A stretch of DNA of 64,000 nucleotides from Comamonas testosteroni (lineage in GTDB: Bacteria > Pseudomonadota > Gammaproteobacteria > Burkholderiales > Burkholderiaceae_C): positions 2,824,501 to 2,888,500 of the forward strand of contig NZ_CP129672.1 of NCBI RefSeq assembly GCF_030505195.1. Direction: 5' to 3'. Made by a program: the position numbers and the translations under genes. Under the pieces are notes generated by a model that was given only the letters and a program-made list of their open reading frames with translations, was not told where the DNA came from and made no database searches. Of the stretch, positions 13,657-62,484 are shown piece by piece (the stretch's first letter is position 1; the number at the start of each line of letters is the position of its first letter).

Positions 13657-14061
13657 ATGGATACCAAGGAACTGTGCACCGAAGAGGAAGTTTCCATCCT
13701 GGTGCATGCCTTCTATGCGCGTGTGCGCCAGGACGAGGTGCTGGGGCCCATCTTCAACACGCACATCGTCGATTGGGACCATCATCTGTCCAAGCTGACG
13801 GATTTCTGGTCGGCCATTCTGCGGCGCACGGCGCGGTTTTCGGGCGCCCCCATGCCCAAGCATGCAGCGCTGCCGGGGCTCAGCATGGAGCTGTTCGAGC
13901 GTTGGCTGGGTCTGTTCGACGCCACGTTGGCCGAGCAGCCCAACCGAGCCATGGCCGAGCAGGCGGGGCAGGCTGCGCGCCGCATTGCGCAAAGTTTGTG
14001 GATGGGCTACCAGATGAGCCGCGACCCCCAAGCGCTGCCGGAAGGGGTGAACCATGCCTGA
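13657..14061 (+). CDS. Group III truncated haemoglobin
   Basis: This is a haem-binding globin of the truncated group III class, 134 residues, probably binding NO or O2 in the cytoplasm. The pattern around the proximal His (MPKHAALPGLS, His69, then FERWLGLFDATL) and the early HAFYARVRQDEVLGPIF helix fit the class. The ATG at 13657 follows ggaaggagttgca, a good ribosome-binding site; an in-frame ATG at 13627 lies at the edge of the operator palindrome and is less likely. The end overlaps nnrS by 8 nt. The pairing with nnrS and an Rrf2 repressor points to nitric oxide stress. Confidence 0.92.
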   Translation: MDTKELCTEEEVSILVHAFYARVRQDEVLGPIFNTHIVDWDHHLSKLTDFWSAILRRTARFSGAPMPKHAALPGLSMELFERWLGLFDATLAEQPNRAMAEQAGQAARRIAQSLWMGYQMSRDPQALPEGVNHA

Positions 14062-15313
14062 GCTGCTGCAGATCGAGGAGCCGCGCTCTGCTGCCCAGCC
14101 AAAGATGCCAGCACCGCAATGGCGCGCTTTTCTGGAGCTGGGCTTCAGACCCTTGTACATCGCGGGTTGTCTGTGGGCTGCAGTGTCGGTGGCGCTGTGG
14201 GTGTTCGCGCCGAAGTGGCTGGTGGGGCGACTCGGCGGTGTGCTGTGGCATGCACACGAAATGCTCTGGGCCTTTGTGGCGACGATTGCCGTGGGCTTTC
14301 TGCTGACGGCGGCTGCCAACTGGACCGGGCGCAACCCGATGCAGGGCCGAGCGCTGGGTGGCCTGTGTCTGTTGTGGGTGATTGCGCGTGCGGGCTTTCT
14401 GGCAGCAGGCGATACGGCTTTTGTTTTGGCCGTTGTGTGTGAGTTGCTGTTCTTCGGCGTCGCTGCCGTGGCGCTGGGCCGGGTGATCTATATGGCGCGC
14501 AGCCGGCGTAACTACGGCCTGCCGCTGCTGATGCTGGGTCTTGGCGTGACCGATGCGCTGTATCTGTGCACCATCTGGCAGGGCCGCGACTATGCCGCGC
14601 TGATGCAATACCTTTATTCCGGCCTGCTGTGCATGGCCGTGATCGCGCTGCTGGTGGCGCGGCGCGTGATTCCGTTCTTTGCCATGCGGGCGGTGGCGGG
14701 GCTGCAGATTCCCATGCACACGGCCAGCGGTCAGTGGCAACTGGGCGCCGGCGTGCTGGCTGTTGCCTGCCTGCTGCTGGGCTGGACTTCAGGCTTGGTG
14801 GCGGCTTTGACCCTGGCGGGGATGTTGACGCTGTGGCAGGTGCTGGCCTGGAAGCCCTGGGCCGTGCGCCAGGTACCGCTGCTGTGGATTCTGTACCTGG
14901 GCCATGCGGCCCTGGGCGCGGGCCTGTTGGTGGCAGCGGCCCAGGCGGGCGGCTGGGTGCTGCGCCTGGCCTGGCCGGTGCATGTGATAGCCGTGGCCGG
15001 CTTTGCGGTGCTGATCATTGGCATGGTGACGCGTACTGCGTTGGGTCATCTGGGCCGGCCGTTGCGCACCGACTGCGCCATGGTGACCATGTATGGGCTG
15101 GTGCTGGCTGCCGCCATGCTGCGGCTGCTGGCTCTGTGGCCGACGAGTTTGGCACTGGCCGCGCAGCATGCCTCGGCGCTGGTCTGGGTACTGGCGTTTG
15201 CGCTGTATCTGTGGCGCTTTGCGCCATTGCTGATCCGGCCGCGCCTGCAGCAGGCGAGTCAGCCCGTGGTGCAAGTGGCTGCGCGGGCGGCCCGCCCCGG
15301 AAAACCTGTTTGA
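14054..15313 (+). CDS. nnrS: NnrS family haem-copper membrane protein
   Basis: This is a polytopic inner-membrane protein of the NnrS family, 419 residues with about twelve hydrophobic helices. Family members bind haem and copper and protect against nitric oxide and nitrosylated metabolites. Signature segments are FRPLYIAG near the N-terminus, WHAHEMLWAFVA with its His pair, and RRVIPFFAMRAV in the middle. Later parts carry the usual GHLGRPL. The start codon overlaps the globin gene by 8 nt, so the two should be co-translated. Confidence 0.95.
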   Translation: MPELLQIEEPRSAAQPKMPAPQWRAFLELGFRPLYIAGCLWAAVSVALWVFAPKWLVGRLGGVLWHAHEMLWAFVATIAVGFLLTAAANWTGRNPMQGRALGGLCLLWVIARAGFLAAGDTAFVLAVVCELLFFGVAAVALGRVIYMARSRRNYGLPLLMLGLGVTDALYLCTIWQGRDYAALMQYLYSGLLCMAVIALLVARRVIPFFAMRAVAGLQIPMHTASGQWQLGAGVLAVACLLLGWTSGLVAALTLAGMLTLWQVLAWKPWAVRQVPLLWILYLGHAALGAGLLVAAAQAGGWVLRLAWPVHVIAVAGFAVLIIGMVTRTALGHLGRPLRTDCAMVTMYGLVLAAAMLRLLALWPTSLALAAQHASALVWVLAFALYLWRFAPLLIRPRLQQASQPVVQVAARAARPGKPV

Positions 15314-60198: not shown

Positions 60199-61026
60199 GT
60201 GTCCGGCCTTGATCCCGACAGCGCCAGCGAATTGTCGATGGTTGAGGGATCCATCGTCTTTTCCTCAACAGTCAGGGTGCTGTGCATGGCGAGAACCATC
60301 GGTGAAGTGAGCTTGGCCGCAGAACTTTGGACGCCTGCCTTGCAGCAGCGCTTTGAAGCGCTGTTCGCCGTCGCAGCGCGCAAGTCGCTTTCCGCCTGGC
60401 GTCAGGTTCCGCGTCATGCGGCCGAAGTGCTGGTGATCGAAGGGCTGGATAGCCTGCTGGCCAGGGCCGAGGCGAGAGCCCCTTGCGTGGTCTATCTCGG
60501 CGGCGAGCCTGCCATGCAGCCGCTGGGGCGTTCTTCCCAGGGCTGGGTAATACATCTTGATGTGGACTTCACGTTGTCAGACCTGATCGACATGCTCGAC
60601 CGGGCCGCGGTTTTCCTCATGGACTGGAGGGCTGGACACCGCAGCAGCGCAGGCCTGAGCCTGCAGCGCGCCTTGGAGGAGCTTCAGCAGCAGGGGGCTG
60701 GCTGCCTGCATCGCTTTCAGATCAAGTCCTGGATCGCCTTGCCCGGCGGCGCCAACAGCGCGCAGAACATGCGCGTGCTGGCGCTGCTGTCGCGCGGGCC
60801 CATCGATGCCAGATCGCTGGCCGAACATGCCGGTATCGAGATGCGGCAACTCTGGGCACTGTTGTCGCTGCCCCAGCTCCAGTCCGTGCTGAGCTGCAGC
60901 CAGTCTGGCAGCGAGGAGCCCGCCGCCGCTGCAAAGCCGAGCGTCGCCAGGCAGCCGGCCGCTGCCGCGCCGCTGCAATGGATCAGCAAGCTGACGGGCT
61001 GGATTACCCGTGGAGGACGTACATGA
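60199..61026 (+). CDS. Unknown protein heading the GTPase/roadblock module
   Basis: I do not recognise this family. It has 275 residues from GTG 60199; ATGs at 60238 and 60286 are possible starts and none has a strong ribosome-binding site. The middle has a VIHLDVDFTLSDLIDMLDRA segment, and the region about residues 180-235 (MRVLALLSRGPIDARSLAEH, then GIEMRQLWALLSLP) reads like a winged helix-turn-helix. The C-terminus is Ala/Gln/Pro rich. Its stop overlaps the GTPase ATG by 4 nt, so it is likely a working partner of the GTPase. Confidence 0.8.
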   Translation: MSGLDPDSASELSMVEGSIVFSSTVRVLCMARTIGEVSLAAELWTPALQQRFEALFAVAARKSLSAWRQVPRHAAEVLVIEGLDSLLARAEARAPCVVYLGGEPAMQPLGRSSQGWVIHLDVDFTLSDLIDMLDRAAVFLMDWRAGHRSSAGLSLQRALEELQQQGAGCLHRFQIKSWIALPGGANSAQNMRVLALLSRGPIDARSLAEHAGIEMRQLWALLSLPQLQSVLSCSQSGSEEPAAAAKPSVARQPAAAAPLQWISKLTGWITRGGRT

Positions 61027-61589
61027 CATCTTTCATGCCCATGCAGCCTGGTCAGGGCATGCTGCGGGTGAGTCTGCTGGGGCCCATGGGCATAGGCAAG
61101 ACCACGGCTCTGCGCAGCCTGTGCGGGGAACTCATGGCGGGCAGCGATGTGCGCAACCTGGACAAGGCGGCGCACCACAAGGAGTTCACCACGGTCGGAG
61201 CGGAGTTTGGCGAGATTGACCTGGGCTCTGGAGAGCGACTGCAACTGGTAGGCAGCCCTGGTCAGGATCGTTTTGATTTCGTGCGCCGCTGGGTGCTCTC
61301 TGCATCGGTGGGCGCGTTGCTGATGGTGGACGTCAACGATGCGGGCGCGGTGGACTACGCCTGCGAGATGCTGACGGGGATCGCAGAGCTGGACCGGGCA
61401 CCTTTGATGGTCATTCTCAGTTGCCGTCCCGCCAGCGGAGCAAGGCTGGAGGCATTCAGCTCCGCCCTGGTTGCCAAAGGCCATGACCTCACCCCGCTTG
61501 TTGAGGCCGATCCACGTGATCGCCAGCAGATGCTGGATGCCCTGAGCGTGCTTGCATCGCTGTTGTCCTTGCAAAGTCAAACTCTATGA
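61023..61589 (+). CDS. MglA/conservon-type small Ras-like GTPase
   Basis: This is a small P-loop protein of 188 residues resembling bacterial MglA/Cvn-type GTPases. G1 is GPMGIGKT (residues 20-27, Lys26, Thr27). The switch I Thr lies in EFTTVGAEFGEI. G3 is LVGSPGQDRF (77-84), with Gly-Ser-Pro-Gly-Gln in place of Asp-x-x-Gly, as in the bacterial FGTPGQ group. G4 is not recognisable: where an N/TKxD is expected there is VILSCRP (130-136). Two roadblock proteins follow, the usual regulators of such GTPases. ATG 61023 overlaps the previous stop. Confidence 0.85.
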   Translation: MTSFMPMQPGQGMLRVSLLGPMGIGKTTALRSLCGELMAGSDVRNLDKAAHHKEFTTVGAEFGEIDLGSGERLQLVGSPGQDRFDFVRRWVLSASVGALLMVDVNDAGAVDYACEMLTGIAELDRAPLMVILSCRPASGARLEAFSSALVAKGHDLTPLVEADPRDRQQMLDALSVLASLLSLQSQTL

Positions 61590-61987
61590 AGGCCCATACC
61601 TCCCTCGTGATTCCGCGACATGTCGTGGAGGCCGGTCAGGAAATCCTGGCGCGCGTGGTCGCCCCGGTGGCGGGCGTCCACATCGCCTTGCTCTGCACCC
61701 CTGACGGCTTCGAGATTTCAGCGCTGCGCATTCGCAGCGAACTGCCGACCGAACGACTGTCGGCCATGGCGGGCTCGCTCATGGCCATGGCCAAGGCCGT
61801 GGCCAATGAGATCGGACACAAGGATTGCAAGCGCCTGACCTTCGAGACGGAGTCGGGCACGGTGGTATTCCAGGCGGTGAACGGCTCCTTCCCGGCCGTG
61901 CTCTGCCTGGTGGTGGATCAGAACGCCTTGCTGGGTCGCGCGCTGTGGGCGGCCGGTGAGGTCGCCACAGGGTACCTGCCCTCTTGA
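61586..61987 (+). CDS. Roadblock/LC7 domain protein 1
   Basis: This is a 133-residue roadblock/LC7-fold protein: VVAPVAGVHIALLCTPDGFE opens the first strands and the rest shows TERLSAMAGSLMAMAKAVAN, FETESGTVVFQAVNG and VLCLVVDQNALLGRALWAA. Proteins of this fold (MglB type) act on MglA-like GTPases as GTPase-activating or tethering partners. It starts in the stop codon of the GTPase gene (ATGA), so the two are made together. No membrane or signal part is present. Confidence 0.85.
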   Translation: MKAHTSLVIPRHVVEAGQEILARVVAPVAGVHIALLCTPDGFEISALRIRSELPTERLSAMAGSLMAMAKAVANEIGHKDCKRLTFETESGTVVFQAVNGSFPAVLCLVVDQNALLGRALWAAGEVATGYLPS

Positions 61988-62072
61988 TCACAGGTTCACT
62001 GGAGTTCTGAGTCTGAGTGGGTGCGCCTCTGGCGCGCGAGTTCCTTGTCTTGCTTTTTCAAAAGGTGGATTT

Positions 62073-62432
62073 ATGGCCTCTATCCAGGATTCTCTGAACG
62101 CTTTGATGACCACAGACGGTGCCGTCTGTGGCGCTCTCGTGGACAGCGCCAGCGGCATGCTGATGGGCAGCGTAGGCGGCGGCGTGGACATGGAGCTGGC
62201 TGCGGCCGGCAACACCGAGGTCGTGCGTGCCAAGATCAAGACCATGCGCATGCTCAATCTCAACGACCAGATCGACGACATACTGATCACTCTGGGCAAG
62301 CAATATCACATCATCCGTCCCGTGGCCGCCAATGATGGCGTGTTCTTCTATCTGGTGCTGGACAAGGCTCGTGCCAACCTGGCGCTGGCGCGCCGCAAGA
62401 CTGCCGATGTGGAAAAGGAACTCAAGCTCTGA
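62073..62432 (+). CDS. Roadblock/LC7 domain protein 2
   Basis: This is a second roadblock/LC7 protein, 119 residues. It reads MASIQDSLNALMTTDGAVCG, ALVDSASGMLMGSVGGG, RMLNLNDQIDDILITLGKQ and later GVFFYLVLDKARANLALARR, a complete alpha-beta-beta-alpha roadblock core. It differs clearly from the first roadblock protein, so a heterodimer or distinct roles are possible. It lies 85 bp after that gene, with aaaggtgg before ATG 62073, and is closed by a terminator, so it ends the module. Confidence 0.88.
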   Translation: MASIQDSLNALMTTDGAVCGALVDSASGMLMGSVGGGVDMELAAAGNTEVVRAKIKTMRMLNLNDQIDDILITLGKQYHIIRPVAANDGVFFYLVLDKARANLALARRKTADVEKELKL

Positions 62433-62458: not shown

Positions 62459-62484
62459 AGCCTGCCTTGCGCAGGCTTTGTTTT
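62459..62484 (+). terminator. Terminator after the GTPase/roadblock module
   Basis: AGCCTGC (62459-62465) and GCAGGCT (62471-62477) form a 7-bp stem with a 5-nt loop, followed by TTGTTTT. It is 26 bp after the second roadblock gene. Confidence 0.78.

Follow-up and report, generated by a model that had tools for sequence, protein, structure and literature searches.

The stretch of DNA analysed here (the window) is 64,000 nucleotides (nt) long and comes from Comamonas testosteroni (NCBI RefSeq assembly GCF_030505195.1, contig NZ_CP129672.1, positions 2,824,501 to 2,888,500 of the forward strand). Analysis of open reading frames (ORFs) showed four plus-strand genes in sequence at 60286-62432, which are labelled g1, g2, g3 and g4. 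By sequence, predicted fold, gene order and phylogenetic tree, this operon is an MglA/MglB switch of Group 3. The Group 3 systems of beta- and gamma-proteobacteria were described from a comparison of genomes: a protein with receiver-like and winged-helix domains accompanies a small GTPase and either one or two roadblock proteins (Wuichet and Sogaard-Andersen 2014, PMC4316618). The point of interest in this operon is its first protein, g1. Our tentative reading is that g1 works as a partner of the GTPase and is not an ordinary response regulator; we give this reading not quite an even chance.

The product of g2 has the P-loop GPMGIGKT, which fits the pattern GxxxxGK[TS], followed by TTVG and GSPGQDRFDF. 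These motifs bear out the Ras-like GTPase that had been proposed earlier from the letters of the window (the original prediction). Group 3 GTPases are characterized by Thr in place of the arginine finger, GTPGQ, a G4 motif that often lacks its Lys, and DAR in G5 (PMC4316618, in part). In g2, the G2 arginine finger is replaced by Thr, and T56 and T57 are invariant in 20 aligned GTPases. G3 reads GSPGQ, with Ser for the Thr of GTPGQ (G77, P79, G80 and Q81 invariant in the 20). G4 is degenerate (LSCRPAS, no [NT]KxD), and G5 is DPR, with Pro for the Ala of DAR (D163 and R165 invariant in the 20). The protein is 98% identical to the GTPase of C. testosteroni strain JL40, and it is the only GTPase match of its kind in the window's own genome (6.08 Mb). 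In a tree of 29 GTPases, the 20 beta- and gamma-proteobacterial rows, including a Neisseria fragment, lay across a branch of 99/96 from seven CvnD and two Deinococcus/Thermus sequences; the tree contained no sequences of the authors' Groups 1, 4 and 5. The Burkholderiales GTPases, g2 included, formed a subclade (100/100) on a long branch of 1.86 changes per column. Because motifs, tree branch, gene order, roadblock folds, receiver fold and the published description point the same way, g2 and its operon almost certainly belong to Group 3, and the MglA/MglB-like module of the original prediction stands.

The two different roadblock proteins of that prediction were also recovered, g3 by its Pfam match to Robl_LC7 (1.2e-6, above the cut-off) and g4 by its predicted structure. 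The g3 profile matched solved roadblock proteins, one of them named CvnB5. Its Asp-Gly pair (D40 G41) is invariant in 17 aligned sequences, and such a pair was noted for the MglB proteins of Groups 2-5 (PMC4316618, in part). No roadblock model matched g4 itself in the Pfam scan, and Robl_LC7 was found in 2/31 members of the g4 family, at best with 2.3e-4. We take g4 as a roadblock protein because its AlphaFold model (predicted local distance difference test, pLDDT, 90) has the fold of Myxococcus MglB (6izw_C; template modelling score, TM, 0.83, 1.7 A); the model also resembles Ragulator subunits. At the turn of the g3 Asp-Gly, an equivalence judged from the strands, g4 has Ser-Gly (S27 G28), invariant in 31 sequences. 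Comparison of the g3 and g4 profiles gave no relation (probability 2.4%), and their kinship would lie only in the shared fold, indicated by the profile hits of g3 to solved roadblocks and by the model of g4. Because g3 has Asp-Gly where g4 has Ser-Gly, g3 is most likely a partner of g2 resembling a GTPase-activating protein (GAP), and g4 is most likely a non-catalytic partner, which would pair with g3 or scaffold g2.

The gene neighbourhoods of 81 loci were surveyed (the best 80 of 188 candidates and L003; L-numbers denote surveyed loci). Acinetobacter is strongly represented in this set, to which some genomes contribute more than one locus. The order g1-g2-g3-g4 was found at 30/81 loci. Since the four genes are ordered alike at so many places, their linkage is beyond chance, and the conservation of order in relatives, on which the original prediction had staked itself, is real. 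A g1-profile hit lay directly before the GTPase at 40/81 loci. A g4 gene lay within 3 kb of the GTPase at 45/81, and none was found there at 36/81. A g2-profile match was present in 46/232 genomes of the class at E <= 0.001 (five of them weaker than 1e-20), and a g4-profile match in 14/232 (two weak, near 1e-4). In 12 of these 14 genomes the GTPase was within about 1.1 kb of g4; the exceptions were G191, with no GTPase found, and G271, with the two on different contigs. At the sensitivity of a single-sequence search, a g1 close to that of the window was rare, being present in 2/60 genomes of its own family, its own included. Among 24 ordered Burkholderiales loci, all four genes had full-length ORFs in all but two, L010 and L017, and in L017 g1 is cut at the contig end. 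The GTPase of L010 (C. testosteroni NFYY023) is broken into two ORFs, with the three remaining genes apparently whole; the same record contains a second operon, L018.

The first protein had been called an unrecognised winged-helix-like protein. The winged helix holds, and the protein itself is known from Group 3 (PMC4316618, in part); its receiver-like N-terminal domain and its basic amphipathic tail had been missed. The receiver fold was assigned through VIA-align, whose 50 rows were largely, not wholly, receiver domains, and whose list barely probed the winged-helix part. Foldseek by itself found no significant match to g1 (best E 0.017), with the FrzS receiver among the weak matches. DUF742 structures were not among the structure matches of g1, which excludes nothing. 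A receiver that can be phosphorylated has a conserved Asp after strand 3 and a Lys after strand 5. The window's g1 departs from this pattern at both places, with Glu at the acceptor position and, in the family alignment (55 sequences; strands taken from the predicted model), no Lys conserved behind strand 5. In this alignment the acceptor position is Asp in 44, Glu in 9, the window's copy included, and Ala in 2. The domain is thus a degenerate pseudo-receiver, and this loss of the acceptor Asp, together with the missing Lys, is one reason to regard g1 as a GTPase partner.

Further reasons are a non-basic recognition helix and a conserved basic amphipathic tail. The mean net charge of the recognition helix was -0.71 in the g1 family (n=55) and -1.07 in DUF742 domains (n=69), and in controls from the window's genome it was +1.60 for IclR (n=15) and +0.11 for MarR (n=18). 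As controls for charges and profiles, the highest-listed matches were used (15/22 IclR and 18/41 MarR_2 matches), and a few places appear in both lists. The recognition helix of g1 is therefore non-basic, like that of DUF742, unlike that of IclR and less clearly unlike that of MarR. At the C-terminus, the tail of the g1 family had a mean moment of 0.61, compared with 0.38 (standard deviation 0.09) for shuffled tails. After 19/92 GTPases were left out, which had no ORF of at least 150 aa directly upstream, a basic amphipathic tail was counted in 62/73 ORFs directly upstream of a GTPase and in 53/658 control ORFs. The 62 comprise 37/43 profile-confirmed g1 proteins and 25/30 other upstream ORFs. 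Examples are GFFGKLRKKLGL in Acinetobacter and LFDRLWRRWLK in Lysobacter, and such tails upstream of Group 3-like GTPases recur across the beta- and gamma-proteobacteria. Such a conserved tail would be unusual for a transcription factor.

The g1 profile was built in three iterations at E 1e-4, with possible drift. By the criterion of the script, 6/52 of its hits had no GTPase within 1.5 kb downstream, and three of these were Acinetobacter genes between g3 and g4. In Solimonas, a second g1-like ORF was observed 4-5 kb from the operon with no adjoining GTPase (L036:11698-12279, L038:11826-12407 and L044:11865-12254, all on the minus strand).

The position of g1 also argues for a GTPase partner, because g1 and g2 overlap and the DUF742 gene of the conservons likewise stands directly before a GTPase gene. 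The latter was seen in 7/7 annotated conservons fetched; one further region, L093, lacked annotation and is outside the seven. The conservons, or actinobacterial G-protein systems (AGPS; CvnA-D, Group 2), are also four-gene operons with a roadblock protein, a winged-helix protein (DUF742) and a GTPase. They differ in having a histidine kinase, which the window's operon lacks, and in their GTPases (CvnD), which form a clade separate from that of g2. A conservon DUF742 protein, MfpC, was reported as a guanine nucleotide exchange factor (GEF) in the available parts of two papers (PMC13343842, PMC13015309). In the single DUF742 protein that was scanned, an IclR-type winged helix scored as well. 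A specific homology between g1 and DUF742/CvnC was suggested by a Pfam match in 1/22 g1-family members (E 0.026) and a profile match with P 6e-5. We rejected it, since MarR domains used as control match better. The winged-helix likeness is thus not specific. The window's genome has 0 DUF742 matches at E <= 0.001. The likeness to DUF742 is retained only as a possible analogy of fold and gene position. In plasmid-borne pairs of Thermus and Deinococcus, a protein with a weakly scoring possible C-terminal helix-turn-helix is followed by a GTPase and then a roadblock protein; the Thermus pair has DUF4388 in place of the receiver-like domain, and its GTPase clade, shared with Deinococcus, is separate.

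On these grounds a working scheme can be proposed. By analogy with related systems, g2 would cycle between GTP and GDP as a switch, and g3 would speed its hydrolysis of GTP. The anatomy of g1 suggests that its pseudo-receiver takes a protein-protein rather than a phosphoryl input and binds an upstream partner. Its winged helix would act on the GTPase, either in the manner of a GEF, as in CvnC/MfpC, or as an effector that reads the state of the GTPase, and its basic amphipathic tail may dock g1 on the membrane. The output may be a surface behaviour, e.g. type IV pilus activity, a guess taken from Snodgrassella only.

Several results weigh against g1 as a GTPase partner. The acceptor Asp is kept in most g1 relatives. 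The Pfam matches in the g1 relatives were of DNA-binding type (DprA_WH 7/22, MarR_2 6/22, IclR 5/22), and the winged-helix profile matched MarR (P 4e-7) better than DUF742 (5.9e-6) and IclR (9.1e-5). Across all 58 columns of the winged helix, the mean net charge of g1 (+1.11) is close to that of MarR (+1.06) and IclR (+1.67) and unlike that of DUF742 (-2.17). Confidence in the modelled C-terminal helix was low (pLDDT about 50-66). The tails had been inspected before the tail criterion was set, the relatives are not independent (many are Acinetobacter), and the control ORFs possibly include spurious ones. Acinetobacter has shuffled or reduced layouts, in which a g1-type gene separates g3 from g4 or the fetched stretch contains no g4. 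The status of MfpC as a GEF was still open in a 2022 paper (PMC9769811).

Many of these results speak for control of transcription, which the 2014 authors proposed for Group 3 systems (PMC4316618, in part). Here g1 would be a DNA-binding response regulator, the state of the GTPase, set by g3 and g4, would gate its binding to promoters, and the pathway would end in transcription. The architecture, a receiver-like domain joined to a winged helix, is that of response regulators, and the MarR-like profile, the whole-domain charge, the Pfam matches and the Asp of most relatives agree with it. The non-basic recognition helix, the degenerate receiver site with its Glu in the window's copy and the conserved basic amphipathic tail do not. 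In nine aligned sequences from upstream of g1, inspection by eye, with no formal motif test, revealed no striking shared palindrome, though g1 would not have to regulate itself. L012 was left out of this alignment because it lacks a start of the form searched for. We consider transcription control possible but doubtful. The gene position shared with the conservons, the GEF role reported for MfpC, the charge of the recognition helix and the tail all lean towards g1 as a GTPase partner, none of them decisively. A bolder form of the GTPase-partner reading would make the Group 3 g1 a membrane-docked, receiver-gated GEF whose winged helix works on the GTPase and not on DNA. Groups 2 and 3 would then be built on a common plan of an input domain, a winged-helix GEF, a GTPase and a roadblock GAP, and the published transcription reading would be wrong. 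We rate this form as unlikely.

The module might instead work exactly like Myxococcus MglA/MglB/RomR, as a polarity module with polar oscillation. The two systems have a GTPase and the roadblock fold in common. The Myxococcus system (MglA/MglB/MglC, Group 1) shares the MglB fold seen in g4, has more than one roadblock protein, and has receiver-type partners of MglA, RomR and FrzS (PMC4316618, in part), of which FrzS was among the weak Foldseek matches of g1. However, g2 has TT and GSPGQ where the Group 1 proteins of Myxococcus and Bdellovibrio carry the intrinsic arginine finger of G2 and the TVPGQ of G3. We regard an identical mechanism as improbable. It is also conceivable that the genes were kept together while the switch degenerated in this lineage, so that g2, without a G4 that specifies guanine, no longer cycles. 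The missing [NT]KxD, the long branch of the Burkholderiales subclade and the split GTPase of L010 fit this idea, but the G1, G2, G3 and DxR motifs of g2 are intact, and only L010 and L017 lack the four full-length ORFs. Moreover, GTPases of Groups 2 and 3 usually lack the G4 Lys, and one of them, CvnD9, has GTPase activity (PMC4316618, in part). A degenerate switch is the least probable explanation and, in our view, very unlikely.

The original prediction regarded the operon as an unusual combination of two roadblock proteins with a possible DNA-binding protein. It is not unusual: an unknown first protein with two roadblock proteins is a known pattern, because Group 3 had already been described in this way (PMC4316618, in part), and the layout was also taken up for Snodgrassella (PMC11112851, in part). 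The window's operon has the Group 3 set of a receiver-like/winged-helix g1, one MglA, two MglB proteins and the GTPase motifs, and no difference of kind was found; the Burkholderiales GTPases are a long-branch subclade within it. The present analysis adds the degenerate receiver site of g1, its non-basic recognition helix, its amphipathic tail and a second, uncoupled g4. The main text of PMC4316618 nowhere uses the word 'amphipathic'.

The second g4-type gene lies apart from the operon in the window's own genome (G000:C1:2991027-2991377, equal to L147:8028-8387, plus strand). A relative, G257, also has such an orphan (L148:7210-7569, minus strand). Identity is 88% between the two orphans and 67-68% between either of them and g4, and the two orphans group together (99/95). 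Both sit between a malate-synthase-G-like gene, named by eye, and a convergent pair of histidine kinase and response regulator; in L148 this pair was scanned for Pfam domains, and in L147 tblastn found its kin. Snodgrassella likewise has an uncoupled mglB in addition to its mgl operon, more closely related to one of the coupled mglB genes, and its orphan mglB alleles changed the colony edge and gut competition (PMC11112851, in part). In the window's genome, g4 and its orphan copy could compete for a place in the roadblock complex. In another genome, G244, two partial g4-profile matches lie 5-8 kb past a four-gene operon (L159:11213-11557 and 13765-14166), possibly duplicated or decayed roadblock genes.

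The features of the operon are listed in Table 1.

Table 1. Features of the Group 3 operon in the window (residues of g1 are numbered in the 275-aa frame)
Feature	Position	Strand	Description
g1	60286..61026	+	Pseudo-receiver and winged-helix domains, basic amphipathic helix at the C-terminus; start ATG 60286, 246 aa
g1 receiver-like domain	60298..60639	+	About residues 34-147
g1 codon at phospho-acceptor position	60439..60441	+	GAA (Glu), residue 81
g1 winged-helix domain	60709..60903	+	About residues 171-235
g1 basic amphipathic C-terminal helix	60973..61020	+	Predicted; residues 259-274, behind a low-confidence linker
g1/g2 overlap	61023..61026	+	ATGA; g2 ATG within g1 TGA
g2	61023..61589	+	Ras-like small GTPase, MglA of Group 3; 188 aa, start ATG 61023
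g2/g3 overlap	61586..61589	+	ATGA; g3 ATG within g2 TGA
g3	61586..61987	+	Roadblock/LC7 (MglB-type) protein, 133 aa
g4	62073..62432	+	Second roadblock protein, 119 aa, highly conserved
Intrinsic-terminator-like hairpin	62459..62477	+	7-bp stem followed by TTGTTTT, 3' of g4

Both 4-nt overlaps of the original prediction are present; g3 and g4 do not overlap, and the gap between them is 85 nt (61988-62072). The prediction had placed the start of g1 at GTG 60199, which would make a protein of 275 aa, and this long form is annotated in some database records of close relatives. Of the nine relatives scanned, L004 and L005 share a counterpart of GTG 60199, and L006-L012 have none. ATG 60286 follows a GGGTG stretch, and L004-L010 all have an ATG at the equivalent place (MA[RK]T...). 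We therefore prefer ATG 60286 as the probable start over the non-conserved GTG. The terminator that was said to close the operon fared less clearly. A hairpin is there, but it is a plausible rather than a strong candidate, because the scan of the region found five terminator-like sites where 2.1 are expected and the hairpin stretch folds no better than its shuffles (z -0.04). No sigma-70-like promoter was found in a scan of the region. The neighbours, named by eye from the ORF list, are a helicase-like gene on the opposite strand and a transporter-like gene. The operon therefore appears, as predicted, to contain no CvnA-type histidine kinase, as judged from these names with no dedicated search. 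Two further records were observed in the survey. One Neisseria gonorrhoeae record (L162:2669-3533) has a Group 3-like GTPase in two ORFs with only a short g1-like ORF before it, and an Acinetobacter wuhouensis plasmid typed as conjugative (L163) has a GTPase match at the start of the record, with insertion sequence (IS) elements nearby.

Group 3-like GTPases occur widely among beta- and gamma-proteobacteria, as their presence in 46 of the 232 genomes indicates. In the literature searched, only the Snodgrassella paper (PMC11112851, in the part available) gives phenotype data on such a system. If g1 is indeed a winged-helix GEF with a membrane tail, this would be a concrete account of how the GTPase is activated, and it would tie Group 3 to the actinobacterial G-protein systems.

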